The position numbers and the translations under genes were made by a program. From Amphibalanus amphitrite (taxonomy: Eukaryota > Arthropoda > Thecostraca > Balanomorpha > Balanidae): DNA of 64,000 nt. Below, piece after piece: positions 3,997 through 58,710 of the stretch (the stretch's first letter is position 1; the number at the start of each line of letters is the position of its first letter). Location of the stretch: assembly GCF_019059575.1 (NCBI RefSeq), contig NW_024883420.1:23105-87104 (forward strand). The letters are read 5' to 3'. The notes beneath the pieces are model-generated. The model saw nothing but the letters and a program-made list of their open reading frames with translations, searched no databases and was not told the DNA's origin.

Positions 3997-5231
3997 GTAT
4001 CGCAGGAGGTCCTGGCCATCTGCAAAAGGTGTGGAGCTGTGATGCCTGTAGTTATAAGGTGATCGGCAGGGCCTCGGGGATCGTGCCCCCCCCCCCTTTT
4101 TGGGGCGCCAGGCAGGGTTATTACCTCCCCATCCCACTGCCAGACCCCATTGCCGACAAAACCAAGTTTACTGAAATTCCATAGATTTCCGCTACTATAT
4201 GGATATTTTCCATTCCTAATTAGTCGAATTCAAGCATGGCAGTTCTACCACAGGAACCATTTGAAATCTATGCCATTTAACCCCAGCACTTGTGGGGAGA
4301 AGTGTTCGGATAGATCACAGGCAGGACCAAAAAAAGCACGCAGTAGCCCAAGACCTTATAATTGGGTAGCATCGGCTCCCTCTCGTCAAGGGGTTCGATA
4401 GCACTCGTTTTTTTTCTGCAAAACTAAGTTCGGTCGGCGGCCGAACGGCTGGGAGTCTAATCGAGCCAACCCCCCACTCCCCTTCTTACGTCAGCGGCTG
4501 TGAAAATCGGAATCCTACCCTGGGGCATTTCACCTGCAGAGGTCGCCGGACCTGAGACCCTTTCACTCATTTTTTTTTTCAACGATGCATGCGCTCGTTT
4601 TTCCCGCGAAGCTCTTGGTAAGTAAAATCCATCAGAAAGTGTGATCAAATAATGGCTGGTGACCTTCCATGACCTAGCATGACCTTTTGAGTGACCACCG
4701 ATGACATGACCACTGACGGCTAGCCATTAGCTGCACCCTGCCCGTTGCATATGGATCAGGTGGTGGTGGTGATGTCATGATTCTGAAATTATATTGCAGT
4801 TTTGGCGCACTTGTCAGAGCAGAAGACATTCCCACTTTTCCTCCATGACTATATGATGGTGAAGCCATGAAGCTGACCAGACGTAAGATTGAAAATTTGA
4901 AAGTACGAAACGTAAGAATGGTTGGCACTGCTACTCATCATACCTAAGTAATTCGCAGCTTGTAGGAAACCAGCTTTGAGTTGGCAAGACTGCAAATTTT
5001 GATTTAGAGGCAAGGATGCTTGAAAAGGTGATCGATCTTAGGTGTCCTAGGATAAGTTTGGAAACGGGATGCACCATTCGATGTGTTTTGGGCTTTACCA
5101 AGTTTCGCGGCGTTACGTGCCTCGTTTTTTTTTGCATACACGATCAGTATCTACCTACTTTTGGAATTTTCGGTCAGGCAGGTCCCCGTCCCCCCCTATC
5201 GAAAACCCGTGGCGCCGCCCCTGGTTAACTG

Positions 5232-15953: not shown

Positions 15954-15961
15954 GCTACAGC

Positions 15962-17799
15962 CAGGGGCGGCGCCACGGGTTTTCGATAGGGGGGGACGGG
16001 GACCGAAAATCGAAAATCCCAAAAGTAGATACTGATCGTGTATGCAAAAAAAAAAAAAACGAGGCACGTAACGCCGCGAAACTTGGCAAGGCCCAAAACA
16101 CATCGAATGGTGCATCCCGTTTCCAAACTTATCCTAGGACACCTAAGATCGATCACCTTTTCAAGCATCCTTGCCTCTAAATCAAAATTTGCAGTCTTGC
16201 CAACTCAAAGCTGGTTTCCTATACAAGCTGCGAATTGCTTAGGTATGAATAGCAGTGCCAGCTATTCTTACGTTTCGTACTTTCAAATTTTCGATCTTAC
16301 GTCTGGTCAGCTTCAGGGCTTCACCATCATATAGTCATGGAGGAAAAGTGGGAATGTCTTCTGCTCTGACAAGTGCGCCAAAACTGCAATATAATTTCAG
16401 AATCATGACATCACCACCTGATCCATATGCAACGGGCAAGGTGCAGCTAATGGCTAGCCGTCAGTGGTCATGTCATCGGTGGTCACTCAAAAGGCCATGC
16501 TAGGTCATGGAAGGTCACCAGCCGTTATTTGATCACACTTTCTGATGGATTTTACTTGCCAAGAGCTTTGCGGGAAAAACGAGCGCATGCATCGTTGAAA
16601 AAAAAAATGAGTGAAAGGGTCTCAGGTCCGGCGACCTCTGCAGGTGAAATGCCCCAGGGTAGGATTCCGGTCCTTGTTGATTAACTTCTTCAAAAATGGC
16701 AGTAGAGCTGTGATGTCGGCACCATTGTGTTCGTCATGATCGAGCTGGCACGACCTGCATCGTTCTCATATTCACCCTCCAATCGTAACAACTACAGCAG
16801 GGATTGGCAAATGGCGGGGCACCTCCTTTGGGAGGTAATGAAGGTCTCTGGAAACCTCATCCCACATCTCTTTAGCATTAGTGGTTCTCCTTATGGAACA
16901 GGTTTCTTGACTGGTCTGTTTCACCCCAGAATTCAAAGACTAGTCAAGGTAAAACCGAGCGCACCACAGTGAGCACAATTTGATAAGCTGGTGTGTCTCA
17001 ATTTTCATGTAGGACCTTTCACGTATCACGGACCTAAAACCCTTTCGTGCACTCATGCAAAAGCAACTGCCATGTTTCAACAGCTGGTAATGGCATTTTC
17101 ACAGCCGCTGACGTAAGAAGGGGAGGGATGGGGGGCTCGATTAGACCCCCAGCCGTTCGGCCGCCGACCGAACTTAGTTTTGCAGAAAAACGAGTGCTAT
17201 CGAACCCCTTGACGAGAGGGAGCCGATGCTATATCCAATTATAAGGTCTTGGGCTACTGCGTGCTTTTTTGGTCCTGCCTGTGATCTATCCGAACACTTC
17301 TCCCCACAAGTGCTGGGGTTAAATGGCATAGATTTCAAATGGTTCCTGTGGTAGAACTGCCATGCTTGAATTTGACTAATTAGGAATGGAAAATTTTCAT
17401 ATAGTAACGGAAATTTATGGAATTTCAGTGAACTTGGTTTTATCGGCAATGGGGTCTGGCAGTGGGGTGGGAAGGTAATAAATAATAACCCTGCCTGGCG
17501 CCCCAAAAAGGGGGCACGATCCCCGAGGCCCTGCCGATCACCTTATAACTACGGGCATCACAGCTCCACACCTTTTGCAGATGGCCAGGGCCTAGGACCC
17601 CCTGCGATGCATCCCAACAGCAATCTTTATTCAGAACCTGCCTTTGTTAACCAACGATGCATTAAATGCGACGGATAGCTCTATAATGCATTATTATCAA
17701 CTATTGAACGGGCCTCGCCGATAGGGGGGTACTGTACCCCCCTAACTTTCGATAGCGGGGGACCTGTCCCCCCCGTCCCCCCCGGTGGCGCCGCCCATG
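15962..17799 (-). mobile_element. hAT-like element, GGGCGGCGCCAC family, copy B
   Basis: The ends are CAGGGGCGGCGCCACGG at 15962 and GGTGGCGCCGCCCATG ending at 17799. An exact 8-bp target duplication, gctacagc, lies at 15954-15961 and 17800-17807. It is the reverse complement of copy A over most of its length. A 430-bp segment (about 16667-17098) is absent from A. This segment holds short open stretches on both strands that I cannot assign, and it may be a remnant of the internal region lost from A. Copy B lacks the MULE insertion and so shows the empty site. Confidence 0.94.
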
Positions 17800-20957: not shown

Positions 20958-22094
20958 GAGGCCTGGATCACATCAAACTGCCAGCGACCGGCAAGGCCCA
21001 TGCCACGAACAAGGTACGAATCTACGTGACGCATACACGTCCCCCTCCCCCTTAGCCCCGCCCGGCTGACAAGACGCGGCCCTTCGAGGGGTCGGCTGAC
21101 GGGCCGGCCGGCCGGCCGGGCGCGCGGCTCGCCGGTGTATCGGGTTGACAGGTAGCGCGCCAGCTGGTGGCCTGTGGCACCACTTCGGCGGAGCTGGCCG
21201 TGCCAGTTTTTTTTTTTTGCGGGGTGATGCGTGCGGGGACCACTTGAGTGCTGGACGCTGTGTCTTAAAGTATTCAAAATCATTCTGTTAATTGTGTCTA
21301 ATGATATTTATTAATAAAATGGTTCGAGGTCATACTGGCCAACCCGTATCCTGGTAGAGTGTGGCCGACCGGGATCTGCGGTGTCGTTGGAAAGTGCCCA
21401 TCTGGCCCTCGGCGCGTACCAGCGAGGTGAGCCCCGCTGGTCCCATGTTGTGAACCTGCTGATCCATGGTGTTGCGACGGGACGGCACAATCCACGATGC
21501 GTATCGGAGGGTGTAACGGGTCCAGCACTGGCGCGTTCCGGGGGGGGGGGGGGGGCACTATCGAGTATCGAGGTACCTTACCGATTAAATACCAGACAGA
21601 CGCTGCCCCGGTTGGCTAGTGTGCAGGCTGACCTGTTGAGTGTCTCGGCGGGATGCGCCTGTCAACCCTCGTTGTGTCTGGGTGGGACGGACTGACCCGC
21701 GGTGTGCCCCGGTGGTGGGGTGTGCTCAGCCGATCCATGGTATACACCAGCTGGACAGGCCCTACCCTCGGCCGACCTATGGTGTGTCCGACTGGGCGTG
21801 TCAGACGGATCTCTGATGTTGATCATAGAGTGCACTAGTGAGATACTGGTCCGTGGCGATATATCTTGATTGTGTCATGGCGCATGTCGATTATATGTGT
21901 TCCCTGGTTTACAAGTGTATGTTTTTGTTTGGTCACGATTAGTTATTCTGCATTACTCAGTGCATTAGTATTGATGTTTCAATCGAGTTTTTGGGGTCGC
22001 CGAGCCGCTGTCGTATCGTGCTAGCGCCGTTCCCATAAGCCCACTCGCGTGGTCGTCTGCCGCTGCCGCCACCGGGATCGTCTGCTTACCTAAG
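20958..22094 (+). other. Long GC-rich spacer between LINE ORF1 and ORF2
   Basis: There are no recognisable domains. It includes GGCC-rich runs (21100-21130), a 10-T run near 21210, an AATAAA near 21314 and a 15-G run near 21541. From 21340 to 21830 it has loosely repeated GGTGTG/CCGACC motifs. It may hold a translation-reinitiation leader for ORF2 or an unrecognised insertion. Confidence 0.45.
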
Positions 22095-25000
22095 ATGCTG
22101 CCCCTGGGACATTTACCTACTAAGCCACAGCCAGTCGGTGACTGGAAGCCTGGTCTGGTTCCGGCTGCCTATCAGGCCGGCCCGCTTCACTTCTCTGTTT
22201 TCTCTCGAGCTGCCACCCGGTCGCCACCGCCCGCCACCCTTCCACCACCCAGTCCACCCATCCTTCCACCCCAGGTGGGGGGAGGGGTTCCCAACACCCG
22301 CCTTCGCCAACAGTTCCCCATCCCCTACCTATCCTTAAGTTTAAGTTTTGATTTCCCGAGCCGCCACCGTCATTCATACATCCACACACATCTATACACG
22401 TCCATAAACCACACAACACACCGGCAATGGGCACTGCTCAACTTGTACAAAGATCTTCAACAGCTTTTACTCATAGCAGGTCTAGAACTAAATCCTGGCC
22501 CCGGCAGACAAGCATGCTATCCCAAACTATCACTCGCACATGTTAATATCAATTCAATAACTGCCCCTAACAGGCTAGACGAATTGCAACAATTTGTAGA
22601 CTATAACAACATTCATATCTTAGCACTTAGCGAAGTCAAAACTGATTCCTCGATTCACCCTAGTCTGTACACATTGGACGATTTCCACTCACCACTCATC
22701 AAACACAGAACACGTCACGGAGGAGGCACGGCAATTTACGCCAAGTCATCCTTACCTATAATACGTCTGCATCAACTTGAAATAGGAGATGAGGAATGGA
22801 TCTGGTGCAAGATCACTTGCGAAAAAAGTACACTCATTATTTGCTGCCTCTATCTACCACCAAATTTAGCGTCAGACCGGCTAGAACTTTTTTTGGACAG
22901 ACTTACGGAAAGCGTAAGTATGGCTCAACTTTTAAATCCAACTGCTATTTTAATCACTGGGGATTTCAATGCGGGAAACATATACATTAACACCGGATTC
23001 CGGAACAGCGGTACAACTCCATTCGACAAAAAACTAAAAGACACAGCACTTACTCTTGACTTGCACCAAATCATCGACAAACCTACAAGGCTTACGGACA
23101 CGACGGCAAATTTACGCGACTTGATTTTCACCAACAACGAAAACATTGTTATCGACAGTGGAGCATTGTCTCCTTTTTCCACATTAGATCATTTCCCTAT
23201 ATACGCCACATTTGACCTTAACACTAAAACCACTCCACCTCGCTTCGAAAAGATATGGAACTACAACAGGCTAGATGCTGATAAATTTACTAGGCTTCTC
23301 ATGAACACTGACTGGCAACAAATACTTGAAACAGACATCAACACTGCTACTTCAAACTTCACTTTGGCAATTATATCTGCAGCTGAACAAGCGATACCAA
23401 CGAAAATAATACGCATTCGACAAAATGACAAACCATGGTTCACCAGCGATCTCAAAAGACAGATTAGGAAACGTGATAGACTTTTTCGGACTGCCAAACA
23501 CAAGGGGACAGACAATCAGGCATGGGACAGATGGCGAGCTCAACGGAACCTGGTCACTGACCTCAATAGGCGACTCAAACAGAACCATCTCAACAATCAG
23601 ATTCATAAGCTTTTAGAACAGAAACATGACCCATACAAATATCACCAGACTCTGCGAAACATAACAGGACGCAACCGACACGAAATCATACCACCTCTGA
23701 TGACAACGGACGGGCGAACACTGACCAACGACGAAGACAAAGCGACTTTATTTAACGACCATTTTGCAGCCCAATCACTTCTCACTATCCCACCTAACCA
23801 TATGCCTCCTGTGTCATACAACAGAGGCCAGGTACCCACTCTCAATACCATTGTCACTACGCCAAACGAAGTACTCAAAATTATAAATTCCCTTGACCCC
23901 AACAAATCATGTGGCCCAGACCAACTTCCTGCCAAAATAATCAAACTCTCAGCCATAATAATCGCCGAACCTCTTTCAATACTATTCAACAAATCATTTC
24001 GCTGTGGAATCTTCCCAGACATGTGGAAAGAGGCAAATATACACCCTATTTTCAAAAAGAAAGGCTCACAATCAGACCCAACAAACTACCGTCCGATCTC
24101 TATTCTTCCAACTTTATCCAAGGTGATGGAAAAAATCGTATTCAAAAACATATACAGTCATCTTTCGGAACATCAGCTATTGTCAGAAAAACAGAGTGGG
24201 TACAGGCCGAAACATAGCACACAGCTTCAACTTACCTATCTCTGCCACAATCTGTATAAGTCTCTCGATTCAGGAAACGACTTCACAGCTATATTTCTCG
24301 ATATCTCAAAATATTTTGATAAAATTTGGCACCAAGGACTAATTCTACAAATGCGAAAACGAATTTGGAATTACAGGATCGCTTTTGGCTTGGATCAAAT
24401 CTTACCTCCAAAATCGTAAGCATCGCGTCAAAATATCCTCGTCATTTTCTAACTTTCGAACAATAAATGGTGGCTGCCCCCAAGGGTCAGTCCTCGGGCC
24501 GCTTCTTGCAATTCTTTATCTTAATGAACTATCAAAAATAACGGAGAACAACACCCAATTTTTTGCCGACGACACTTCTTTGCACGCATCTCATACATCC
24601 ACTAGCATAGTTAACGTTCAAAAATCACTCCAGAACGACCTGAACAAAATACAGCAATACGGCCAGAAATGGATAATAGCATTTAATCCTGAAAAGACTA
24701 TCCAAATCACACTCTCAAACTCTTCAAATCCGGCAACATCACCACATCTTCTCTTTAGCGGAAAACCAATTCCAATATCCCTTTCCCATAAGCATCTCGG
24801 TATTACCCTTTCTCAAGATTTGCGTTTTCATCAACATGTAAATGATATCATTTTGAAAGTCAATAGATCCTTAAGCCCTATCTACCCTATATCAGCACTT
24901 TTACCAAGACATGTGCTCGATCTCATTTACCGCATATACATCCGACCCTACTTTGACTATTGCGACATTATTTATGACGGAAGTATCACACTGACTGACT

Positions 25001-25764
25001 CCTTACGACTGGAAAGACTTCAAAACAGGGTAGCTAGACTAGTGACAGGAACTCTACGCAGGACATCAACTGACAAACTGAGACAGGAATTAGGATGGAC
25101 CACCCTCAAAACGAGACGGAACGTTCACAAACTCACGATGTACTATGCACTCAGACAACCACAATCACAACTTCCTACATACATCACTTCCATCATTCCT
25201 AACACTCGATCACAAGACACCGGCAGACTCCTAAGAAATTCCAACACCCAGACATTGCCCAAGAACAGGATAACGTTATTTCAAAACTCATTTGTGCCAT
25301 CAACCACCAAGCTATGGAACACACTTCCTAATTACATCCGCAGTGAAACATCCATTAAACGTTTCAAAAAGGATCTTATTAAGCACTTGGGAACCCCTCC
25401 CCCTCCTCACTATTTCTCCTACGGTACCAAATTTGGGAACAGGGTTCACACTAGGCTTAGGGTCGGGATGTCTCAGCTCAACGCTCACCTTTTCCCCCTA
25501 CAGCTTTCTGATTCCCCTCAATGTCAATGCGGGTCACCCAGTGAAACTGTTCGTCACTTTCTTTTAGACTGTCCTCTTTACCGAAATGTTCGTGATCGCC
25601 TATTTAGAGCCTTGAGTATCCATCTAGAAATTAACGTTCCTGTTCTCCGCTCCTCTGAGTTGCTGACTTTGTTATTAAATGGACCCAGTCCTGCGGGAGG
25701 TGGCGACCGAGTGGTGGCCCAGCTCTTTCAAAAATTCTTATCCGATACAGGACGGTTCAGGTAG
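22095..25764 (+). pseudogene. LINE ORF2: 2A-like motif, AP endonuclease, reverse transcriptase, CCHC-like tail; one frameshift
   Basis: Frame one (22095-24419) starts with a Pro-rich leader and a hydrophobic stretch ending in GLELNPGP (residues 129-136), a 2A-like motif. An APE endonuclease follows: LAHVNINSI, LSEVK, GGGTAIYAK, ITGDFNA and the terminal SPFSTLDHFPIY. Reverse transcriptase begins near residue 600 (SCGPDQLPAKII), with FKKKGSQSDPTNYRPIS, and motif A reads FLDISKYFD (Tyr where Ala is usual). Near 24355-24370 the frame shifts by one base, and the rest continues in a second frame to 25764. That part has PQGSVLGPL (24478 on), FADD (24562-24573), and a C-terminal CQC..H..C zinc-like cluster near 25522-25570. 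The conserved catalytic aspartates are present. Because of the shift, a complete product would need frameshifting, so I list it as a pseudogene. The clade (L2/CR1-like) is inferred from the NPGP leader and the repeat tail. Confidence 0.87.
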
Positions 25765-30075: not shown

Positions 30076-31071
30076 CCCGCGCACCGACGGGGGTCTGCGC
30101 CAACTTAGTACCGACGGGGGGGGGGGGCGGATGACCGCCCCCCCCTGAGATCTCGAGAACGAAGCAAGATAGCGACAAGCGGTAAACGGCATCGGATACA
30201 CACGGACAAGGTCTACAATTTTTACTAAGGTCATTTTCAGGTCAGGTCAAAGATGACGTCACAGGGGTCGAAAAAGTCAAAATGGCGGCGCTAGATATGG
30301 AGAGGGTTTTTTCTCGAATAACTTTCGAAGTAGTGAAGATAGGAACAAACTAAGGGCATCATCGTGATCCTCTCGTCAATCCGCATCGAATGATATATAT
30401 GTTGACCTCGAAAGGTCAAGGTCAAAGGTTGACCTCAGGTCACGTGACCTCGAGGTCATCATGTATATCATTCGATGCGTCTTGACGAGCTGAACACAAT
30501 GAGACCATCCGCGCGGCTGTATCTTGTTCCTGTAAGGAGTTATTGGCAAAAAACCTTTGGTGACCTTTGATGACGTCACATGACCTTACAGCTGCCCAAC
30601 AGCAAAACAGACCTCAAGGTAGTGAAGGTTGATCGTATGTGAAGTCATGTATGGTATATGGGGCCATTCTGACCCGTTTTAGTGGTAAAAACAGGGAGTT
30701 GATTTTTCCCCCATTGACTTATAATGGGGAGGTCGCGAAATTGACCTGGTCACCGACATCAAAATTCCGAGATATACAAATTGTAGCTACTAATGACCTA
30801 ATAACATCCTGCGACTTTCAAAGGCCTCCGACATCTACTGTAGCTCTGGCACGGTGACAAAGTTGCAAAAAGTGAGTTGAGGTTGGGTCATTCAAAGTGA
30901 CCTGGTGACCTGACCTTAAAAGTTAGGAAGTTCAAACTTGCACACCATGTGTAAAATTGATGAGAGAATAGTCATACCAAATTTAGCGGCGCTACGCGCC
31001 GCGGTTTTCCCGCTATCTGCGAAAAACCTCAGGGGGGGGCGGATATCCGCCCCCCCCCGTCGGTGCGCGGG
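30076..31071 (+). mobile_element. TTAA-target MITE with TGACCT arrays, copy 1
   Basis: The ends are CCCGCGCACCGACGGGGG and its complement, with TTAA on both sides (30072-30075, 31072-31075). Next to each end is a G-run/C-run mini-palindrome. The body holds a dozen or more AGGTCA/TGACCT hexamers, including AGGTCACGTGACCT at 30437-30450. An internal hairpin of about 100 bp (30380-30482) has GCATCGAATGATATA at its tips. Near the right end, GCGGCGCTACGCGCCGC and GAAAAACCTCAGGGGG recur in copy 4 (41682-42628), which places both in one family. No coding capacity. Confidence 0.9.
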
Positions 31072-31075
31072 TTAA

Positions 31076-31971
31076 AGTCAAAGACAAAAGGTTTGCCAGG
31101 TTCTCGTGGAATGCGGAGCATTTCTTCCAAGCGGAGGAGAGAGTGGAGGAAGAACAGCAGTGGGAGAGGGGAAAGGGTGGAGTTATGGCTGACCTTGGCC
31201 GTTCCGCCGACGGCAGAGGTCGTGCAGTCTGAGACAAACCGGCCAGCTCCACACCACGCGGGGCCGCACGGGTTGCTGGGTAATCACACCAAGGCCATAT
31301 AAATCACACCACGGCCCACGCACATAACACACATACAAACATCTTATTCGGTGCTAGTCAGACATGCTACCGATTTATCGGCATTGTTTTAACGGCATTG
31401 CTTTTCTGATAAATATAGCAGAATAGATATGTAAACATGTGAGACTAAAATGTAGATAGTGAGAGGCAAGTAAGTGCGAGCGGTTGAAAGTCATCGATAT
31501 CGACCTTGTTGGCCCAGACGGATGCAAAGCGGCTGCAGCAGTTCTGCCTCTTGTCGCTAGATGGCAGCGCTGGTGCGCGCCTGAACGCAGGCTGTGCCGC
31601 ATAACTCGCCCGAACCGCCCGGCGCCCGCGCTGTGCCGCGCTGTCTTCCCGTTCACTGTAAGTGGTAATGGATTGCAATGCTGATCTGTGAGTGGAAATA
31701 GGGCGCTTGGTATATTTGCAAAGATTAATTCTACTTAACAAATAAATTTGTCAATTTCTTATGTCCTACCCCATCCCAAATAAAACGTCAGCCAACTGCT
31801 GCTTCCGTTTTCGTCACAGACCATGCGTTGGGCCGTGTCCCCATGTATATTACGTGCCTTGTCGTACTCTGTCACATGCATATGCAGATGAGTGCCATCA
31901 CGGGCCGGGTCACGGGTGGCCCTGCAGAGCGGCCGACCCGCTGCTGTCGTCGGCACTCTGTTGATGTCGTG
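31076..31971. other. No gene seen between two elements
   Basis: GC-rich patches (31190-31330, 31500-31640) have short frames on both strands. An AATAAA lies near 31740. No exon is supported. Confidence 0.35.
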
Positions 31972-32359
31972 CACTGAAAACAAATCTACTCGTATATGGA
32001 GAGTAAACGTCATTTTACCAGCCGCTAATGAGTTTCAACCGCTGGTTTACTCGTGTATGAAGCATTCCAAGCCCTGAGTTCTGGTTTACTCATTACAAAA
32101 ACTCATACAAAGAAATCAATGACCTGCCATCCATGAGTAAGGCGGCCCCGAACGCATGAAATAATGCTTGTGTGTCAGGAAATGCGAGTTTCTTGACTCA
32201 TGTATTGCGCGTAATTATCGTACTCACGAATCATGCATTCACTAAATCTGTAGAAAGCGAGTTCTGGAAATGAGTTATGAGTAAATACAATCACAAATCG
32301 TGCGTAAAAAGCGTACTCACAGCCGACCGGTTATCAAACTCGTTTTTGACGTGTTTCTT

Positions 32360-32445
32360 TACCGATGGATCATAGGCCGCCTCGCCGCCATTTTTGTTCC
32401 GGCCGGATCCGTGTGTGCAGGGGGAGTCGCGTGCTGCAAGTTAAG
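32360..32445 (+). promoter_or_regulatory. Candidate first exon/promoter with YY1-type motif and splice donor
   Basis: GCCGCCATTTT at 32384-32394 matches the YY1-type element found at transcription starts of housekeeping genes. The GC-rich stretch ends in CAAGTTAAG|GTGAGT, a strong splice donor at 32446. An ATG at 32365 would give 27 codons in phase 0, compatible with the exon at 34475. However, the overlap with the YY1-like site suggests this is mainly 5' untranslated. The transcription start is not defined. Confidence 0.4.
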
Positions 32446-33203
32446 GTGAGTAAAATACCAGATATTTTGCTTTATCAAGTGTATTGTGCGTGGAAAATAC
32501 CGGAGAATTAAACGACAGCTCTCTTTGCTAACCTACATGCAGGCCTGGGACATTAATATACAGAAAAGGGGCCAGGAAGTTCACATGTGTGGCCCCGCGT
32601 CCACGTCATACTGCAGTTTAGGTATCAGACTGCCTTTCAAGCAGCATATAATGAATTTATAGACCACTGTACATCCATATCCAGGGTCACAGGCAGAATA
32701 GCTTATATTATTAATATGCACATAGCCAGGGTCATGCTTGTAGTGGCAAAATTGCATGCCAAAAGCTTCAGTGCATGTCCAGCGTAACATTTATAATCTA
32801 TGTGCGCTAAATTAGAAAATGCATCAGGTTTTCAGACTTCAGAGCCTTAAAATTCAGGGTAAAAAAATAAAATTTTGACCTTTATTGATGGTTTATCACT
32901 GCTAAAGACAAAAAATGCCAGTATACCATCCAAAAGCTATCTGTGACATGCCTATCAGAGGAATACCAAAATGTAAATAGCAAACAAATGACAAAATATG
33001 CAAGCTCACAGGTGCCCAGCTAAAAATTGATTCAGGTCGAAGGTGGATAGGTTGGAATGCTGTGCTTGGTGTCTGGTGAAAAATGATTTTGAAATTGCTT
33101 ATGAGCTGTTCTCAGATGAAATTTCACCACAAATATTCCTTGTGCAAATGACTCGCAGGCTGGCAAGTGTCCATGCCACACTGCAGTTTCCCATGGACGT
33201 TAA

Positions 33204-34226
33204 CCCTCGCCCTGGCAGGGGGGGGGTCGATGCGACCCCCCTAAGGTTTTTCGAAGATAGCGTAAAAACGGCGGAGCAGCCAAATTTAGCACAGCCTATG
33301 GGGCAGCCTTGTTACATATGACCTGAAAATTTCAGGTCCGGTTGACGTTGGGTCAGGTCAAGATTACTTTACTACTCACTAGGTCAGTCACTAGGTCACT
33401 AGGTCAGAAAAACTGGTACAAGGTCATGGTCAAATTTCAATTTTCTTTTTGCACCTGTCCAACTCACAGTTTTGGACTGATTTCCTTCAAACTTTCAGGA
33501 TGTGCTAAGTTCACCGAGTTGTATAACATATTGTTCGGGTTTTTTGATGTCACTGACCTGAGGTCAGTTAGAGGTCATTACGTCGTAATGTTAAGCCTAT
33601 GGGAAAATACTAAATTCGGAAAATACTGGAGATATCCGCTTCGTTCTATCACTTTTGTGCTTTCAAACCACAGTACTTAACAGCAAGTCACTTGGAGCTT
33701 CTTTGTTTGGTGTACATATCCATGGGTCAGGTCAAATGAGGTCAACTGAGGTCAAATGACGTTTTTGTCAATAACTTGGCACACAATGACGCTAGAGCTT
33801 AAAAAAATGGTGTGATTGTGTTCCTGGTGATCAGCCGAATCGAATTATATGCGATATGATGCAATTTGGTTAACTGGAGCTTAATTAATTAATTAAATTT
33901 ACTTAATAATTAAGAAAAAATTAAGTACACTGAAGCAAGCAAAAAGTATATCATTCGACGCCCCTTGACGTGCTGAGTTCACTGGTGTTTTTATTTTTGC
34001 TCTATCTTAATAAGATCAAAAGTGATAAGCGAAAACTTTTGACCTGTTTTTAGCGAAATTTTTGCATGTATACCCCCCAAACCCTAAATATTGACCTAGA
34101 GCAACCAAATTTACACAGGGGCGAGAACTCCAGAGGGCCCACCTACCTACCAAATTTGGTGTTTCTAGGTGCCATAGGAGCCAATCGCGAGGGGGGTCGC
34201 ATCGACCCCCCCCCCACCCTGCCAGG
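33204..34226 (-). mobile_element. TTAA-target MITE with TGACCT arrays, copy 2, right end lost
   Basis: The left end is TTAA|CCCTCGCCCTGGCAGGGGG (33200 on) followed by a G-run/C-run mini-palindrome. The right mini-palindrome and CCCTGCCAGG are present at 34187-34226, but the final GCGAGGG and TTAA are replaced by unrelated sequence. AGGTTTTTCG near the left end mirrors the right end of copies 1 and 4, giving reverse orientation. The insertion lies in the intron of the gene inside the CACTG element. Confidence 0.8.
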
Positions 34227-34474
34227 CCGTGCTATGAAAAATGCCCTGTTACGTAGACAAACATGTTTTAAATTTTAATGCCCGCTTTTTAAACAAACCA
34301 GTAGAACGTATTGCAGCAAAATTAAACATTAAAAGTTGCAAAATCAGATGACATTTTCTCCCAGCACCGGTGCATTAGTTTGCTCTCAGGAAACTCTGTT
34401 CAAAATAGAATGGCTGACCGTAGCTGTGTATTGTTGTGGCGTACATTAATAACATCCATTTGTTTGTTATTCAG

Positions 34475-34589
34475 AGTCCCAGCACCTCTGTCGATGCGGA
34501 GGTCACGGCCGCCACCGCCGACCCCGACGAGGGCACCAGCGCGAGCGGGCCGCCGGCGATGGACATTGAGGAGAGCTGGCTCGTTATCG
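34475..34589 (+). CDS. Internal coding exon of a small spliced gene, product unknown
   Basis: It is bordered by a pyrimidine-rich acceptor (ttgttattcag) and a strong donor (CG|GTGAGTAT). The open frame encodes an acidic, Ser/Thr/Ala-rich stretch and then MDIEESWLVI, with the split codon G|AC completed by the next exon. Codon use is GC-rich, unlike the AT-rich surroundings, which supports real coding. ESWLVI preceded by acidic residues resembles an LC3-interacting (W-x-x-I) motif; that is inference only. The frame upstream is closed by a stop (TAG, 51 bases before the exon), so the exon must be spliced. The start is either the ATG in the upstream exon (32365) or the internal ATG at 34559. I do not recognise the family. 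Confidence 0.6.
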
Positions 34590-35039
34590 GTGAGTATAGA
34601 GAGTGAATGTTCATTTGAATGACTATGGCTTCGCTCCGCTGAATAATATGTTGCCCTGCCCGTCGTCAAGGATGTTGTCCGGCCCTCTGCTAAATCTTAT
34701 TTATTTAGCAGCATTTATGGACTTTGTGAACATTTTTTAGCGTTGCATGTTTGGAAATGAACTTGCCCTAGGGCTGGCAATTTAATTATATAACCTCATA
34801 TTTTATCGAAATACCTCGGGTCTGATGACCCTCGGAACTTCGGCAAAAACTCGGTGACATAATTAAATTGTTCCCAGCCCCGGGTGTGTATATTTTCTTT
34901 TCGGCTGTTTTTTTTTCACCTGACGGCTCGGAATAAAACCGTTACATCACTCGAGAGTAAAATATGCGTTGATCGACCCGAGGCAACTTGCTCGGGATAT
35001 AACCATTAATAATATCGAAAATATTTGTTCTCGTTGCAG

Positions 35040-35173
35040 ACGATGCAGTCGACCACCTGCTGCACCGCGCTGCAGTGAGCACGGAGCTGTGTTTCAGCCA
35101 TCCCCAGTACCCATGGCCGCAAGTTCGAGCTGGCATACTCTACGTGGAGAATGAGACGGTTGTCGAGTTCTAA
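35040..35173 (+). CDS. Terminal coding exon of the same gene, product unknown
   Basis: The acceptor is tcgttgcag|AC. The frame continues the G left by the previous exon and reads DDAVDHLLHRAAVSTELCF, then SHPQYPWPQVRAGILYVEN, ending in VVEF and a TAA stop at 35171-35173. The predicted protein is about 56-109 residues depending on the start. It has no signal peptide or membrane segment and looks like a small soluble adaptor, but I can give no function. A TTAA MITE starts 18 bases after the stop, so the 3' UTR has been replaced or extended by a transposon. An AATAAA at 35691-35696 inside that MITE could supply the polyadenylation signal. The intron is 450 bp. Location inside a CACTG-ended element raises the question of gene capture. 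Confidence 0.62.
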
Positions 35174-35191
35174 CCTCGGCGGTCGACTTAA

Positions 35192-35739
35192 AGGAAATAG
35201 TTCACTTTTTAACATGGGTTTTGAACTGGAATAGCAGTTCCGTAGCTTGGGCTGAGACGAGCATAAATCAGGAGCTTTTACAGCCCAACGATCACCCTAG
35301 GCAAAGATATTCTATTTCTCGTCCCGAAAAAGGTGTCTTGCGTTGAGGATGTGTGCCTTGCATATATTTCCATCCAGTATGAAAAGAGCATGGGTCCCGA
35401 AAATTCTTCAGAAACTAGAGAAATTATCTACGAGAGCTCTAGAGAAATTCTCGTACTGATCAATTAGGACATTCAGGGGAACATTATCAGATCGAGCAGA
35501 TCGCCCAAATGCCGGTGGCTGCGATAATTTCTCTGTTTCTGAAGAATTTTCGGGACCCATGCTCTTTTCATACTGGATCGCTTGTGCCTTACAGAAACTG
35601 AAAAGTTCTTCCTATATCAAAATATAGAAAAAAATATTTTGTTATAAAAAGGTTTTATTTTCTTTGCTGATTATTTTGAACATAAAAAATAATAAATCGT
35701 TGCAAAAAAAAATAATTTCGTGAAAGTGAACTATTTCCT
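35192..35739. mobile_element. TTAA-target MITE, AGGAAATAGTTCACTTT family
   Basis: The ends AGGAAATAGTTCACTTT and its complement are flanked by TTAA at 35188-35191 and 35740-35743. The right third is A/T-rich. A near-perfect 200-bp hairpin is embedded at 35374-35577. It lies immediately downstream of a stop codon. Confidence 0.88.
35374..35577. repeat. Hairpin inside the TTAA MITE, arms about 60-90 bp
   Basis: TCCAGTATGAAAAGAGCATG at 35374 is repeated inverted, ending at 35577. The arms continue through GGGTCCCGAAAATTCTTCAG with few mismatches. It may be a second, nested foldback insertion or the family's own core. Confidence 0.85.
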
Positions 35740-36680
35740 TTAAGTGACCAGCTGCCGGGACAGAGACTGACCGGCAGAGTTCTGTTGATGCCTCATACTT
35801 TTCTCTGTTTGTTTCTGTTTTCTGTTACCCAAGTTTTTGTCATTATAACTAGTTGCAGTTAAATTAGCTTGTTGCAGTTCGTTTATATTTTGCTGCAGGG
35901 TGTCCCTTAAGTCTCAACAGTAGAGACGTGAAACGTTGGACGCTAATGAATGAGATACAAGGCACTTTGATGTAAAGCACAGACAGAGCTTTGGAGTCGG
36001 AAATGTATCAGTTAACCAAACCATTGAAACTGTGTTTGCGTATGACTATTGAAACTGCGTCTTTCACATGCTGGTTGCACGACCTTTCTATAGAATACGA
36101 AATAACATAATCGCACATAAGACTGTGAAATAGAAAGCTGCTTGGTATAATAGGTCCGTGTCCTCCTTATGATGGGTTCCTATAGCTGGTCTGGTCTTGC
36201 AAACAGCTATAATTATTGAGCGTTACCGTCCACAATAGGTTGTCCAGCTTGCTTGTTCGTATGTGCATGAAATACAGATTTAACTTTGCTGTTCTCTTGA
36301 CTTGTCATTCGTTCTAAACAGTACAAAATGAGCGCAGGGTTATTATTTTGTCAATTTTATGTCGCCCATGGCATGACAATAGGTATCCACGCACTTGTCG
36401 TTTTACAAATCATTCGATATCTTAAGTTGATTGTTCCTATAAAACGACCACGTTTCTGTGTTCGGTGTCATTGCTCGGTGTTAGTATTGCGGATAGTGTA
36501 ACTATGGTCTTGTTGGATGTTTTTCCTCGTCTTGCATGCTATTTTGCACACGAAATAACACGCAAGATGGGAATGAAAATCTGATAAGTCGCGTTATCCG
36601 TAATATTAACAGCGGAATATCTACTCATCTCCTGCCGGTCAACCTTACCTATGACTGATAAGTAGGTTGACTGGTAAGAG

Positions 36681-37105
36681 GTGAGTAGATTGACCGGTCG
36701 CTGGCGCAGTCAAATAGGTGGTGTCCATAAAACCGCCCATCCATTAGTAAATTAACTCACAGAATGAGAGTAACTGAAATGAGTAACCAGCGATACATGA
36801 GTTTTCACAATGAGTAAGGTGAGTAGATTGACCGGTCGCTGGCGCAGTCAAATAGGTGGTGTCCATAAAACCGCCCATCCATGAGTAAATTAACTCACAG
36901 AATGAGAGTAACGGAAATGAGTAACCAGCGATGCATGAGTTTTCACAATGAGTTAACTCATCGAGCGTGGGTAAATATGCATGAGTAAACGCACGCTTCA
37001 TCGGAAAGTTGACCGGCAAGTGGTGAGTTGATTAACCGGTCGCTGGGGCCGTCAAATAGGTGGTGTCCATATAACCGTTCTTCCGTGAGTTTACTCACGA
37101 GAGAA
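36681..37105. repeat. 138-bp subterminal tandem repeat of the CACTG element
   Basis: The unit starting GTGAGTAGATTGACCGGTCG repeats at 36681 and 36819 with few differences. A diverged partial third copy starts at 37023. Each holds several GAGTAA motifs. Such repeats next to a terminus are typical transposase-binding regions in CACTA-like elements. Confidence 0.85.
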
Positions 37106-37354
37106 GAGTAGATTTGTTTTCAGTGTGCAGCTATTTAGGGTATCGCGTCACAGCATCTGTACTGGTACTGGAAAGGAAACAGCTACCCGCGCGAGGACCG
37201 CTTATCTGGAAATACATCTATGAGAGTGCGGTCTGTGTTCCATAGTGCCCGCAATGCGGCAGGATGACGAATATACAACCACGAAGCTGGTGGATAGGAT
37301 ACACGATAAACGGCGATAGCTATTAGTGGCTAAAAATAAAATAAGGCTAGTTAA

Positions 37355-37842
37355 AGGGACCCTCCCATCTTCAAAAAAGTTAATGAATTGGCATGAAAGT
37401 GATGTCCCTTGGTTCAGAAAGAGGAAAACGAATATCTACCAAATTTCACCGAAAAATATTCACTGGTTTTCAAGATATTAGGCTTTTACTTTTGTTTACT
37501 TTTTGGGATTCCCCCTGTTACTAGCGACTTTATTTGGAAGCAATAATTTGGCAGCCTTTAAGTGCGGCAGACGTTGCGCGCAAAGCAGCGTATACCACCA
37601 CGTGTTAACGATGGTTTTAGTCTAAGATTTAAAAATCGTTAGATCTCCGCTGACGTCACAAATTCTAAGGGGGCATTCCAATGCATTAGCCCCTTAGAAT
37701 CCGAAAACTGCAAGTTTGAAATTCCATATCTTCGAATTAAAGCATTTTTCGATGTTGTGAGTGCCCAAACCGGTATTTGCAGGCCATGGCCACCAATTTG
37801 GCTATCTCAACTCAAAACTAATGTTAAGGTGGGAGTGTCCCT
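37355..37842 (+). mobile_element. TTAA-target MITE, AGGGACCCTCCC family, copy 1
   Basis: The ends AGGGACCCTCCC and GGGAGTGTCCCT are flanked by TTAA at 37351-37354 and 37843-37846. The interior shares nearly all its sequence with 41053-41519, including an internal palindrome around TTCTAAGGGGGCATTCCAAT. About 488 bp, non-coding. Confidence 0.94.
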
Positions 37843-37846
37843 TTAA

Positions 37847-39711
37847 AGGTGATTTAAAAGGTATCTATTCCAGCTAAGTTTTCAGTTTATTTTTAACTAC
37901 AGTTAGACATATTTAAGCACTTAACTAGCATATGAAATGATTAGGAAAATCAAGAGTACTTACCTATAGCTCAGCCAGACATATGACAGTGACATGAATT
38001 ACATATAATATATCCCGAAAAGGAATCACCTCAGTTTGTTTTTCAATAGAAAAAACACAATTCTTAAAAATAATGTTTGTCTAATGAAGAAACAACCTTC
38101 GGGTATTACGCTAAGAACGGCCCTTGTGCTTTCAGTGAAATTGAAGAAAACTTGTACCTTATACTAGAACCCGGAGCTGAGGTAAAAAGCATGACTTAAA
38201 TTTCCCTTTTACAAATACCTCAACTACAAATTAAGCAGTTATGCGTAAGGTGATACCAACAAAGCACTCAGCTAATCTCATCTCTTTGTGTTCTGAAGTG
38301 AAACATGGGTGGACCCAGCGTGTAACTGCGGCCTTGCACTTCCTGGCCATTAATAGCGCTGTCAGCGGAGCGCGGCAGTGCACTGTTCGACCGGCCTGCA
38401 GCCGTTCCGCGCCGGCGGCCTTGGACTGACGGACGCACGTGGAAGCCCCACTGCACCATGGACGAGTGCAGCCGCCGGCGCGGGCTGTCTGTGGCACCCG
38501 TCACCCCCACCGCCGGCCGCCTCACACCGCTCATGAAAATGAAAACAGCCCGACGGCCCAGATCGGTCGTCCAAGGACGTCGTGACGGCTAAATGTGAGA
38601 AGCGGCATGCATGCTGCATGTGAAATGACCACACAGAGAGGAGTGAATGTGTGGGATGGTGCTACGTGAATTATGAAAAGAATAGAAATTATGTTTTTAA
38701 ACTACTTGATTCGCTAACTTTAGTTTCTTTAATTTTCTCATTCGAGTAGACACGTGAAACATACCCATTTAAAGAAAAATATCAATCACACTTTAAAATT
38801 TCAAATGTTTTGTTCAATTCAAACAGTGCACACTAAAACACTAATACCTATGCACGAAGCGCGATTTCATATTACCGCAAACGAATGTACCTACCTAAGC
38901 GCTGACGGTTATTTCTATTGGCTACTTATGTAAGGCTTTAGGCCCTTATCAGACAATGATTCATTAAATAGTTAAAAATCACTGATTTTTAGACCATATT
39001 GCTTTGCCACATGCCATCATATGACAGAGAATACGGGGTAATTTTGTGAATAAAGAGCACGTCGACTTGCACTATCTGCCTTTCAGCGTGCCGTGAAGAA
39101 GCTCCCAATCACCCGAATGCCTTTTGGGCGGGCGGCTGTCAGCGGGTCGACCGGGAGGCGCCGGTTTATTCTGCAGGCCGGCTGAATATTGATTATGTCG
39201 TGTTGAGTGGAGCCCGTTATGAGACAGGGCCCGTGCCGTCGAGGCGCCGGCCGTGAAGGCGACTGGAGAGACACGTCCCGTCGGCGCGGCGACAGGCCGG
39301 GTCGCGCCGGGTCAAGGACGGGACATCACAGGGCTCCGGCGCCGGACACCGAATTCAATAGATCAAAAAGGCGGGCGGGCAGACGGATAGACGGGCAGAC
39401 GGATAGCTTGGATGGACACTGATTACGTCAGTGGAAGGTTCTCACGACAACCAATCAAGTAATCCCTTTTACCTGCCATCTGTCAACGTTACTTAACTGC
39501 CATCAAATCAACAGCCTGACACCGTATCGTTTGGTCTCCTTCCCCTAAAACAGCTTAAAATACTAGGCATTTTTAGAAATATAAAACAATTAAAAACTAT
39601 TTTCAATTATGCTTGTAATAAAGGATATTATTACTTACAAGGATGTCAGTAGGCTCATATTCAGCTTGTAAACATCATCCTCACACCGCGCAGTTTCTAC
39701 ATTAACCCTCG
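37847..39711. other. No gene seen
   Basis: GC-rich islands at 38330-38600 and 39090-39400 lie in AT-rich sequence. The second has a small (GGGCAGACGGATA)n duplication at 39375-39405. Frames exist on both strands but none has a recognisable domain or exon borders. Confidence 0.35.
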
Positions 39712-39715
39712 CATG

Positions 39716-40588
39716 TGTAGGGGGGGTCGGATGGACCCCCCCATGGTTTTTCGCGAATAACTCGCGTAAAAAGCGGCCGATCGCGACGAAACTTTCAGTA
39801 CCCTCGCATTGATCAATTTTACACCTACCCTGAAAATTTCATGACCCTGACCCCAATGACCTTTGACCTGTGACCTCTTTTCCGAGACCATGTTTGGCCG
39901 GAATCGCGATTCCGCGTATGTCGGCTCGCATTAGTCGCGCGTTTGCAAGCTTTTCGTGGTTTCAAACGTTCAAACATGTGATTTGATGTTGCTCCCATGC
40001 ATTAGGGTGGGTGTCAAGGTCACCTGAAGGTCAGGTCAGGTCATTGACCTTTGGTGACCTCGGTTCACTTTTTCGAGTTTTGCATGTTTCTAGGCTAGTT
40101 TTTGGAGCTGAATTCGAATTTAGCAACCATTTGAACATTTACGAAGTAGTTTTGGTGACTTCGTAACATGTTACGAAGATGTCAGAGGCGGTTGACACGT
40201 AATACTAATACCCGTCACGACGCCTACTGGTTGACCTGACCTGACCTGACCCGACCTGGTCTAAATGCTTAAAGACATCATCTGTGATCAAAACTAACAC
40301 GATATTCGTGATCAGCACCCCGAAAAACCCCTTAGCAGCCACACTTTACGACTTTCTAACAGGTCCCGATTTTCCCGACCTTGGGTCATTGACCTGACCT
40401 GGAAGGTCAACCAATGACCTAGGACCTTAAAATTGGGTATCATCGGCTTCCTCTCGTCACGGGCAACACGCTCGTTTTTTCCGCGAAGCTTTAGCTCGAT
40501 CAGGGGCCAAACGGCAAGGGGGGGGGGGTCCAACCGACCCCCCCCCCCTACACATTAGAAGCTGGAAAACGCCGCACACATGCGAGGG
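39716..40588 (-). mobile_element. TTAA-target MITE with TGACCT arrays, copy 3
   Basis: The ends CCCTCGCATGTGTAG and its near complement (CACATGCGAGGG) have TTAA at 39712-39715 and 40589-40592. G-run/C-run mini-palindromes lie next to both ends. The body has many TGACCT/AGGTCA hexamers. The ATGGTTTTTCGCG motif near the left end places it in the same family as copies 1, 2 and 4. Confidence 0.92.
40038..40050. promoter_or_regulatory. Perfect IR-1 nuclear-receptor site (AGGTCA T TGACCT)
   Basis: Two AGGTCA half-sites are inverted around one base, the consensus arrangement bound by the arthropod ecdysone receptor EcR/USP. It lies in a TTAA MITE that holds further half-sites in direct and inverted order. 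Binding in vivo is inference. Confidence 0.55.
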
Positions 40589-41052
40589 TTAAGTTCCCAA
40601 CTCACCCAGCCGCAGGGTCCGAAAGAAGGCGCAATGAGCGCCGCCGGCTTCTGCAGGCTTCGCCGCCCGGGACGTGCACCGTCTGCAGGCTTATTTGTTC
40701 TCGGCCAGTTTGGAGCTCATTACCCTATCGGTCTTCGGAGGTCCAATCGCGCAGCCGGTCGATGGTGGCTCGTTCATATTGCCAAGGGTCGAAGGCGGCC
40801 CGCTCGTCGAAGGGCAGTACACTCCGCCGGCCGGGTCATGACCTCTGTGCGGAGACAGGCAGGGAGTTGGAGGGGCTATAGCCGCTTAGCAGGTCAGTCC
40901 ATTGATGGTGATAGTCAGGTTTCTGTGTGGGACAGTCGAGGGAAATGATAGCACGACCTCTGTAAAGGAATAGGGATAGGACTTATCTTCGGACGGTGTC
41001 TGGCAGGGGTCCGCCAGGGGTGGAAAAGCCTAATCCCGCATGGAGTACTTAA

Positions 41053-41519
41053 AGGGACCCTCCCACCTTCAAAAAAGTTAATGAATTGGCACGAAAGTGA
41101 TGTCACTCGGTTCAGAAAGAGCGAAAACGAATATCTACCAAATTTCATCGAAAAATATTCACCGGTTTTCAAGATATTAGACTTTTACTTTTGTTTACTT
41201 TTTGGGATCTCCGCTGTTCCTAGCGACTTTATTTGAAAGTGCGGCATTTGTTGCGCGCAAAGCAGCATATACCACCGCGTGCTACCAAACGTTTTAGTAA
41301 AATATTTAAAAATCGTTAGATCTCCGCTGACGTCACAAATTCTAAGGGGGCATACCAATGCACTAGCCCCTTAGAATCCGAAAACTGCAAGTTTGAAATT
41401 CCATATCTCCGAATTAAAGCATTTGTCGATGTTGTGAGTGCCCAAACCGGTATTTGCAGGCCATGGCCACCAATTTGGCTATCTCAACTCAAAACTAATG
41501 TTAAGGTGGGAGTGTCCCT
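41053..41519 (+). mobile_element. TTAA-target MITE, AGGGACCCTCCC family, copy 2
   Basis: TTAA flanks at 41049-41052 and 41520-41523. It is nearly identical to copy 1 but about 20 bp shorter, with a small deletion near 41236. Same orientation as copy 1, so the two form a direct pair 3.7 kb apart. Confidence 0.95.
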
Positions 41520-41587
41520 TTAAGGCTTTTACTGAAGCTGTTGCTACGCAGTTCGACTGTGGACTAGGACTACAGTGCTATTCACTG

Positions 41588-42693
41588 CAGAGGCGGATCC
41601 AGCTCAGAGGTTTGGGGGGGGGGGGCAAACCATGAAAATTTATCGATTCTTTCCATGCATCGTCCATAGGCGTAATGTTAACCCTCGCCCGTAAACGGCG
41701 ATCTGCCACCTTCGCCCATGCAGGGGGGGGGGTTGGTGCGACCCCCCCCCCCCTTGGCGTTTGAAAACGGAGCGTCGTAGAGCTTAGCGGAAAAGACCAA
41801 CGGATTGCTCTCAACGAGATCTCGCGATTGGTGGTATATTTTTTGGTCCTAGGTCAACATTTGACCTACTTTTGACCGGTCAAAGGTCAAATTTTCGGAA
41901 AAATAGACTTTTTCAAATTTTCCGCGGCGATTGCGGCAAAACGGTGGGAGATATCGACTTGAAACCTTCACTATCGTGTTCCTTGATCAATTTTCTATCG
42001 TTTGGTATGTATTTCGTTTCCCTGGCTCTAAAAATGGCGCGTTGGGAGCGCCGGAAGTCGGCAAGGTCACAGTCGGCGGCAGAAATTCGAAAAATCAAAA
42101 TTTAAATTTTTGAAATCTGATTGTGTTTTTGGATTTGGGATGTCCATTTGCTCCCTATAGAAGCTAATATTGCTGCATATTCCCATTGAGGTGACAAGAA
42201 TTAGCAAAATAGTGGTTCGGGCGCTTTTCAAAAATAGTACCGGACGCTGTTCCTCTTGTGACGTCATAGCTCCGTGACCTGACCTGACCCGGTCAAGTTT
42301 CTTATACCATATGATAGCCAATACTTGCCCCAACATGCATGGGAAGTTTCATCACGATCCATCAACCGATGTCCGTACCACCGGCAGGAAACCTCGGGCG
42401 TTGGCACTCAGTTTGTGAAAATCCGGCCGGAGGCTGTTCCCTTTGTGACGTCATAACTCCGTGACCTGACATGACCCGGTCAAATTTTTTTTATCAAAAG
42501 ATGCGCAAGGTTTGCCCCATAAGGTACCCAAAATTTGGCGGCGCTGCGCGCCGCCGTTTTTGCACTATTTCCGAAAAACCTCAGGGGGGGGGGGGGTTGC
42601 ACCAACCCCCCCCCTACATGGGCGAGGGTTAAAATCATGCCGTTTGGGGGGGCAAATGCCCATTTTGCCCCCCCCCCCCTGGATCCGCCACTG
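41588..42693. mobile_element. Small hAT-like MITE, CAGAGGCGGATCCAG family, split by a TTAA MITE
   Basis: The ends CAGAGGCGGATCCAG and CTGGATCCGCCACTG are inverted repeats with an exact 8-bp duplication, attcactg, at 41580-41587 and 42694-42701. Without the nested element at 41682-42628, it would be only about 155 bp, carrying G- and C-runs. No coding sequence. Confidence 0.95.
41682..42628 (+). mobile_element. TTAA-target MITE with TGACCT arrays, copy 4, nested in hAT
   Basis: The ends CCCTCGCCC and GGGCGAGGG are flanked by TTAA at 41678-41681 and 42629-42632. G-run/C-run palindromes, TGACCT repeats and the GCGGCGCTGCGCGCCGCC block near the right end match copy 1. It was inserted into the hAT MITE after that element had landed. 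Confidence 0.94.
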
Positions 42694-55709: not shown

Positions 55710-55850
55710 TCCAGGCGTTCCGAGTTAAAGCCATCTAGCGGCGCCAGTGGAACTACATAGGTAGCGCCAGTGAACGATGTTTGTGTGGTTGACATCTTAT
55801 AACAGGTGTCCTTTATGCAATTTATTGGTAAGGCTATAAGCAACGGTTAA

Positions 55851-56328
55851 AGGGACCCTCCCACCTTAACATTAGATTTGAGTTGAGATAGCCAAAATGG
55901 GGTCCCTGGCTCACAATTACCGGTTTCGGCACTCACAACATCGAGAAATGCCTTAAATCGGAAATATTGAATTTCAAAATTGCAGCATTTTGATTCAGAG
56001 GGGCTAATGCTTAGGAATACCCCTCTGAATGTGTGACGTCAGCGCAGATATCTAACGATTTTTAAATGTTTGACTAAAACGTTTTGTAGCACGCGGTGGT
56101 ATATGCTATTTGCGCGCAACATCTGCCGCAAACGCCGCACTTCTAAAATAAAGTCGCTAGAAACAGCAGAGTTCCCAAAAAAGTAAACAAAAGTAAAAGT
56201 ATAATATCTTGAAAACCGGTGAATATTTTTCGGTGAAATTTGGTAGATATTCGTTTTCGCTCTTTCTGAACCGAGCGACATCACTTTCATGCCAATTCAT
56301 AAACTTTTTTGAAGGTGGGAGGGTCCCT
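55851..56328 (-). mobile_element. TTAA-target MITE, AGGGACCCTCCC family, copy 3
   Basis: TTAA flanks at 55847-55850 and 56329-56332. It is the reverse complement of the copies at 37355 and 41053, with more substitutions and altered bases in the central palindrome, so it is probably older or from another subfamily. Confidence 0.94.
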
Positions 56329-56332
56329 TTAA

Positions 56333-58590: not shown

Positions 58591-58710
58591 CTGGAACACA
58601 GACAAGGGCAGGTCAGGTCAGGTCAAGTCAGGTTAGGTCAAACTCTCTCGCTCAGATGGGGCTGGAACACAGACACGGCGAGGGTCAGGCGACACCAGGT
58701 CAGGTCAGAT
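58587..58710 (-). repeat. Duplicated splice-acceptor region and TGACC repeat in the intron
   Basis: GGGGCTGGAACACAGACA occurs at 58587-58604, covering the real acceptor, and again at 58658-58675. AGGTCA-type (GGTCAGGTCAG) repeats lie between and after. The distal copy keeps the AG but would lead into a stop within eight codons. Confidence 0.8.

Follow-up and report, generated by a model that had tools for sequence, protein, structure and literature searches.

Structure of the element

The window analysed here, a 64-kb stretch of contig NW_024883420.1 from Amphibalanus amphitrite (808-Mb assembly), contains a transposon unit of 5,154 bp (31972..37125) that carries a candidate spliced gene with three exons (Table 1). 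The left end of the unit, CACTGAAAACAAATCTACTC (31972-31991), returns at 37106-37125 as an exact reverse complement of 20 bp, and the inverted repeat extends past these bases to 37 bp at 86%. No further match to the 20-bp end with up to three mismatches was found in the window, and none occurred in 100 shuffles either. The dinucleotide TG adjoins both ends on the outer side.

Short repeats crowd the regions next to both ends. The left arm (489 bp) holds 16 copies of GAGT[A/T] in either direction, where 1000 shuffles gave a mean of 1.6 and a maximum of 7, and the right arm (526 bp) holds 20, against a mean of 2.5 and a maximum of 9. This is an eight- to ten-fold enrichment, about ten-fold on the left; the 4,139-bp middle has 12 copies versus a shuffle mean of 13.3. 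The left array is low in diversity among copies of the element (nucleotide diversity, pi, 0.024), and a 138-bp tandem duplication in the right arm is present in the other aligned copies, except for C35, whose right end is lost. Chance repeats are ruled out as the origin of the ends and arms by the uniqueness of the ends in the window together with the shuffle counts.

Table 1. Features of the CACTG-ended element, in window coordinates
Feature	Position	Strand	Basis or remark
Target-site duplication, left (TG)	31970..31971		2-bp flank matching in 18/19 two-ended loci
Left terminal inverted repeat, 20 bp	31972..31991	+	same end at other copies
Left subterminal GAGT[A/T] repeat array	31992..32350		motif enrichment, low diversity
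Putative exon 1, from ATG 32365, donor at 32446	32365..32445	+	ATG upstream of the YY1 core, perhaps unused
YY1-type core CGCCATTTT, promoter-like region	32386..32394	+	kept among family and sister copies
Nested piggyBac-like TTAA / CCCTCGC element, intron 1	33204..34229		right end degraded; end approximate
Putative exon 2	34475..34589	+	borders kept in copies; homologous in-frame tandem exons elsewhere
Putative exon 3, frame of the sequence-only reading, window-specific stop	35040..35173	+	acceptor in 21/24 assembled copies
Nested TTAA miniature element, AGGAAATAGTTCAC ends	35192..35739		TTAA at 35188 and 35740; absent from C793
Right subterminal repeat array with 138-bp tandem duplication	36619..37105		repeat and motif analysis
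Right terminal inverted repeat, 20 bp	37106..37125	-	exact inverted copy of left end
Target-site duplication, right (TG)	37126..37127		matches left TG

Copies in the genome and their insertion sites

Searches of the whole genome with the entire element and with its left arm recovered 24 assembled copies, which represent 22 loci of a low-copy, cut-and-paste element; the haplotype copies C793 and C683 are excluded from every locus count. In the left-arm search very common words were skipped and all 24 candidates were scored. These 24 matches lie in 23 copies, all of this family, with the arm of C212 split by an insert; C361 lacks a left arm because its contig ends, and is left out of counts that require one. 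C793 is the other haplotype of the window locus (99.7-100% alike, including the flanks), and C1277 and C683 form a second haplotype pair (99.99% alike).

Nineteen distinct loci have two ends, the remainder being C35, without a right end, C361, at its contig end, and C45, where the stretch that was read stops before the right end. CACTG is present at both ends in all 19. Matching flanks of 2 bp are found at 18 of these loci, and at none do flanks of 3, 4, 5 or 8 bp match. The duplicated dinucleotides are TA (5), TG (5), AA (3), CA (3) and CG (2), so that 15 of 18 are pyrimidine-purine steps, compared with 25% of the dinucleotides in the window (P 3e-7). The sequence-only reading had proposed a single CACTG-ended unit with GAGTAA-rich subterminal repeats on both sides and TG outside both ends. 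The genome-wide copies and the shuffle comparison confirm this proposal, and the TG dinucleotides prove to be one instance of a 2-bp duplication. The alternative that two short elements happen to flank unrelated DNA can point only to the separate repeat arrays at the two ends, and we regard it as refuted: the same two ends enclose the same kind of interior at 19 loci, 18 of them with matching duplications, and neither terminus has a close partner of its own in the window.

Three blocks, at element positions 1-1230, 2276-3220 and 3769-5154, make up a core that the copies share apart from losses here and there; between the blocks lies other DNA, including nested elements. In the window copy there are two such inserts, which we take, from their TTAA flanks and end letters, to be Kolobok- and piggyBac-like miniature inverted-repeat transposable elements (MITEs), later passengers outside the family core. 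C793 lacks the 548-bp insert at 35192-35739, with near-identical flanks on either side. This MITE lies just past the stop codon of the sequence-only reading, in one haplotype only, and brings with it the sole downstream plus-strand AATAAA/ATTAAA within the element. A different intron block, of ~870 bp, is whole or nearly whole in C310, C100, C45, C921 and C215 and occurs in pieces in C216, C1174, C205 and C961, with none of it in the window copy.

When the whole genome was scanned for the 20-bp end with up to three mismatches, 547 matches were obtained, versus 79 with the reversed pattern. A larger group of ends, CACTGAAAACAAATCGACAC, was also seen in the genome and probably represents a further family within this transposon lineage. 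Scans for the inverted repeat gave no match in viral contigs, and in bacterial and archaeal contigs three single matches in metagenome bins, which we take to be due to chance.

A promoter-like first exon and recurrent splice borders

The strict YY1-type pattern CGCCATNTT occurs four times on the two strands of the window, and one core, CGCCATTTT, is at 32386. The ATG at 32365 lies upstream of this core and might not serve as the start. Among the 23 other assembled copies, 21 have the YY1-type core CGCCATNT and 20 the strict CGCCATNTT, with the core altered at its last base in C822. It is missing from two copies, C212, where an insert interrupts the arm, and C361, which is truncated by its contig end. 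In the same number of copies (21 of 23), the core lies at offset 392-415 and the donor at offset 450-474. The donor lies 57-77 bp past the motif in the family and in a sister group described below, and in both the distances from the end are nearly fixed.

Scored with untrained splice-site weights, the donor of exon 1 (32446) ranks 3 and that of exon 2 (34590) ranks 34 among 3671 plus-strand GT sites; among 3613 AG sites, the exon-2 acceptor (34475) has rank 35 and the exon-3 acceptor (35040) rank 17. The exon-2 donor is matched in all 24 assembled copies. Its acceptor is matched by a narrow pattern in 23, and the 24th copy, C35, retains CAG. The exon-3 acceptor is found in 21 of 24 copies; C921, C205 and C961, where it is absent, have exon 3 cut short and were left out of the exon-3 count. 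As almost every copy has the promoter-like exon with its donor and the borders of the inner exons, these features are part of the element.

There is overlap between the donor at 32446 and one unit of the subterminal repeats, and the donor might be nothing but such a unit. The position of the donor in the sister group speaks against this, since there it lies far past the last GAGT[A/T] motif (offset 563-565 versus 375). The promoter-like exon with a donor that the sequence-only reading had described is thus upheld by 21 of 23 other family copies and by all three sister copies read. We regard the left arm as holding a candidate transcription unit, its promoter role and splicing being suggested by this layout.

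Probable decay of the reading frame

The spliced frame from the ATG at 32365 is open for 109 codons. Within the element there is one two-exon open chain with comparable sites; the rest of the window has one more, on the opposite strand. Such a chain was found in 2 of 400 shuffles of the element interior, a figure that flatters the chain, because the thresholds were derived from the chain itself. The exact exon-3 frame of the sequence-only reading results from a 2-bp gain and a 7-bp loss that are private to the window locus relative to other loci, and the exact C-terminus of the window is present at 1 of 19 loci in which exons 2 and 3 could be parsed. The frame from ATG through DDAVDHLL is kept in 13 of 18 loci with three parsed exons and lost in 5. 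Across the 19 loci the exon-3 frame and its stop vary, and many copies have frame-breaking insertions or deletions.

Exon 2 carries no mark of codon-position constraint within the family: pi is 0.027, 0.049 and 0.018 at the three codon positions, and thus highest at position 2 (18 loci, first batch). Codon scores, trained on two open reading frames (ORFs) of the window, are negative for exon 1 and positive for exons 2 and 3, each of which is beaten by another frame. A functional accessory gene would be expected to keep its reading frame across copies, and this frame is not kept. Judged from the aligned copies, the coding part looks decayed in the family, the 109-codon frame of the window depends on changes private to its locus, and there is no sign in the family of a maintained protein. 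The two spliced coding exons of the sequence-only reading are therefore sustained in their borders, which recur in copies, and not as a maintained protein of the form that was drawn.

A sister group with the same ends

The 20-bp end occurs without mismatch at 17 further places in the genome. Three of these were read in part, and are 96-98% alike, with arm sequences otherwise unlike those of the window family. They contain 18-19 GAGT[A/T] motifs in the first 600 bp, and in all three a YY1-type core, oriented as in the window family, lies at offset 488 and is followed by a GGTGAGT donor at 563-565. The one sister element traced over its full length, at C120:938284-943750, is 5,467 bp long and flanked by TA at either side; its right end deviates at three bases, and it contains an exon-3 homologue after the same acceptor.

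An exon-3 match on the matching strand lies inward of 16 of the 17 exact ends, within 10 kb in 15 cases and at 17 kb in C590; the exact end on C837 has no inward exon-3 match. Further close exon-3 matches are found on C557, C792, C1196, C1271, C1619, C1845 and C438, and a one-mismatch end is present on each of these except C792, at a distance of 27 kb for C557 and 11 kb for C1271. Since loci with the same inverted repeats hold the third exon too, a gene of the element is favoured over a fresh capture from the host. The sequence-only reading had offered both a Pack-CACTA-like gene carrier and a new accessory gene of the element. The second fits better as to where the gene belongs, although the copies give no support for a maintained protein of the form drawn, and a fresh host capture fits less well.

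Relatives of the exons elsewhere in the genome

Exon 2 has relatives in tandem arrays, with 16 units at C862, 8 at C715 and 1 at C1313. The 25 units detected by BLAST all have an open frame between AG and GT borders, and their lengths of 108, 114 or 129 nucleotides are divisible by three. An 8.6-kb stretch of the C862 exon array is present twice, at 99.95%. At C715 the homology covers exon 2 and ~200 bp of upstream intron, and less flank is included at C862 and C1313.

Matches to exon 3 lie on C428 (three places), C379 and C567, and four of the five include part of the intron upstream. Three of these five places keep the frame DDAVDHLLYREYGAVFPVIPRAWPHLPDGTLYVENEAVVKFKELTSAVC, or one close to it, open; it is broken at C428:196115, and C567 diverges from it after the first half. 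Frames that by eye resemble pieces of BEL/Pao-type retroelements lie beside the exon-3 homologue at C428 and C379, in the same repeat units. The exon-3 peptide of the C120 sister element has 80 matches in the genome at E values up to 1, some of which are pieces of one place. Relatives that are ~40% identical cluster on C264, C556, C1335, C428, C1010 and other contigs, and the one distant member of this kind that was read shares the pattern VEGV...QF......LTWGAAFTVFAQ.

These relatives raise the possibility that the family arose in the manner of Pack-CACTA elements, by recent capture of exons from a host gene and subsequent amplification. Exon 2 with its intron flank is homologous to the open tandem units, and the ratio of nonsynonymous to synonymous substitution (dN/dS) is 0.24-0.81 among four representative units, compared with 0.63-3.8 between units and the element, although these values are based on few sites. 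For exon 3, a stretch that includes ~130 bp of intron is 85% alike in two places on C428 and on C379. However, exon 3 is present in the sister loci as well, oriented in the same way relative to the end, so any capture must predate the split of the two groups. Also, none of nine outside stretches, each read over 9-10 kb, was found to contain both exon 2 and exon 3, and at C1313 both are matched on one strand but 47 kb apart. We therefore consider a recent capture possible but on the unlikely side.

The relatives also bear on whether the exons are merely chance open frames in noncoding DNA. The private C-terminus of the window, the lack of codon constraint in exon 2 and the codon scores, which do not favour the frame of the sequence-only reading, would agree with such an origin. 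Yet exon homologues that lie outside the family have open frames and share its exon borders (all 25 units for exon 2, and three of five places for the exon-3 frame), the exon-3 protein of a sister element matches ~40% identical frames elsewhere, and comparable chains are rare in shuffles. Chance frames are thus very improbable.

Affiliation of the element and origin of its gene

The family has three of the features by which CACTA/EnSpm (CMC) elements are recognised, namely CACT[A/G] ends, duplications of 2-3 bp and subterminal repeats in both orientations. It resembles this group, including the animal TRC elements, in its CACT-type ends, its 2-bp duplications, its short subterminal repeats and its putatively spliced internal gene, and differs from CMC elements in that no transposase was seen in the present family. 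A YY1-type promoter fixed within an arm is not known for the CACTA/CMC group, though no literature search was aimed at this point. In maize En/Spm the promoter and first exon lie within the subterminal repeats, followed by a long first intron, and a small spliced product is made. The present family shares that layout, although a relation to TnpA or TnpD could not be shown. For SmTRC1, 2-bp direct repeats are reported at 7 of 14 copies, along with several spliced transcripts (PMC1636069). The same source proposes CCC ends for animal TRC elements, in contrast to the CACTG seen here, and another report gives CA..TG ends and target-site duplications of 2-5 bp for the CMCT group (PMC12730594).

Pfam searches with 10 ORFs of the element detected no CMC-group DDE transposase, and among 10 ORFs of large inserts the only hit was one reverse transcriptase of a long interspersed nuclear element (LINE), in C212. 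That insert has a 796-codon frame (RVT_1, 4e-37) and lies between repeated element bases 158-172. A genome search with PF02992 gave no match, but neither did any of its 14 controls, so its outcome carries no weight. A frame in C361 that by eye looked P-element-like was not upheld by Pfam.

Exons 1 to 3 could in principle be the remains of a transposase or of a second gene, left after internal deletion of an autonomous element. Internal loss would be expected to leave a promoter and first exon close to the left terminus and the last exons toward the right, and both groups have this layout. Against this, Pfam and Protein Data Bank (PDB) searches with the exon, sister and host-like peptides gave nothing above noise. 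The clustering of the ~40% identical homologues is also more like that of a gene family than of a transposase, although these homologues, a minority of which were read, may include other transposons. Overall, we think a deletion derivative unlikely.

The reading that we favour, with a probability of roughly 0.7, is that of a non-autonomous CACTA/CMC-like family carrying an old, element-resident gene that is related to a larger gene family of the genome. A CMC-type transposase encoded elsewhere would recognise the ends and arms in trans, cutting at CACTG and inserting mainly at pyrimidine-purine steps. The promoter-like start in the left arm would produce a spliced mRNA of the resident gene. 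Because the exons are part of a larger genomic family, the gene probably passed between the host and an ancestor of the two element families, either from host to element or the other way. Elements of the window family would most likely move this gene as a passenger, without a fixed protein today.

Several observations weigh against this reading, or against parts of it. No transposase frame was seen in any family copy or in the sister element on C120, whose longest stop-free frame is 119 amino acids, and the superfamily assignment consequently rests on the ends, arms and target-site duplications; among the two-ended loci, C961 has both ends and no such duplication. Exon 2 was not found in the C120 sister element by blastn or tblastn. 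After the stop codon, the plus strand of the element has AATAAA/ATTAAA only at 35691, inside the nested MITE. As to the decay of the coding part, C17 and C1174 enter the YVENETVVEF frame of the window through other insertions or deletions. Moreover, exon 3 has a pi of 0.022, compared with 0.056 and 0.033 for parts of intron 1 and 0.048 for intron 2, and this lower diversity leaves room for constraint.

A bolder variant, which we hold to be rather doubtful, would have the CACTG elements of this animal carry a resident gene whose YY1-type promoter is fixed in the left arm and which has been exchanged between transposon and host; from sister copies with an open frame, its product may still serve transposition in an accessory or regulatory role. 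The protein would then have a C-terminal domain with the rough pattern DDA.DHLL...VF...VE...v.FKEL...LLTWGAAFTVFAQ. This domain would correspond to a large genomic family that has no Pfam match and that includes tandem arrays of in-frame exons.

Comparison with gene-carrying transposons

As a non-autonomous carrier of a resident gene, the family is not new in kind, since transposons with terminal inverted repeats (TIRs) that carry genes are known in animals. Elements of this kind are familiar from plants and less common in animals, and the family adds 22 loci in one animal genome. Like Pack-TIR and Pack-CACTA elements, it is a TIR transposon whose exons are homologous to loci elsewhere in the genome. 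Unlike Pack-TIRs, its gene is common to two element groups and stands behind a promoter-like region that is fixed in the left arm, and for these reasons the gene looks resident and old. The promoter-like start and first exon stay in place despite the divergence of arm sequence from one group to the other. The family permits a direct test of whether animal transposons move promoter-bearing spliced genes, and of the direction in which genes pass between host and element.

Gene-carrying TIR transposons in animals have already been published: one report counts 370 young Pack-TIRs, of which 323 are hAT or TcMariner; birds and insects have none, and few of the elements are multicopy (PMC8277862). 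Turmoil-1 of C. elegans is reported as a further animal case of a gene-carrying TIR transposon, or transduplication (PMC2572040). Within the open-licence literature, nothing closer to an animal CACTA gene carrier was found.

Other features of the window

The piggyBac-like MITE family represented in intron 1 has TTAA-flanked members at 30076-31071, 33204-34229, 39706-40588 and 41682-42628, whose ends read CCCTCGC or CCCGCGC and have G-rich palindromes close by. Three copies of a different repeat, which has TTAA and ends resembling AGGGACCCTCCCA, lie at 37348-37846, 41046-41523 and 55847-56332. Long inverted copies at 4007-5224 and 15961-17799 are 93-97% alike and lie ~12 kb apart. A retrotransposon without long terminal repeats (non-LTR) at 21975-25761 encodes an endonuclease and a reverse transcriptase in two overlapping frames. 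A gene with an LPMO_10 domain (Pfam, 4.7e-14) is found on the minus strand at 57556-58617.

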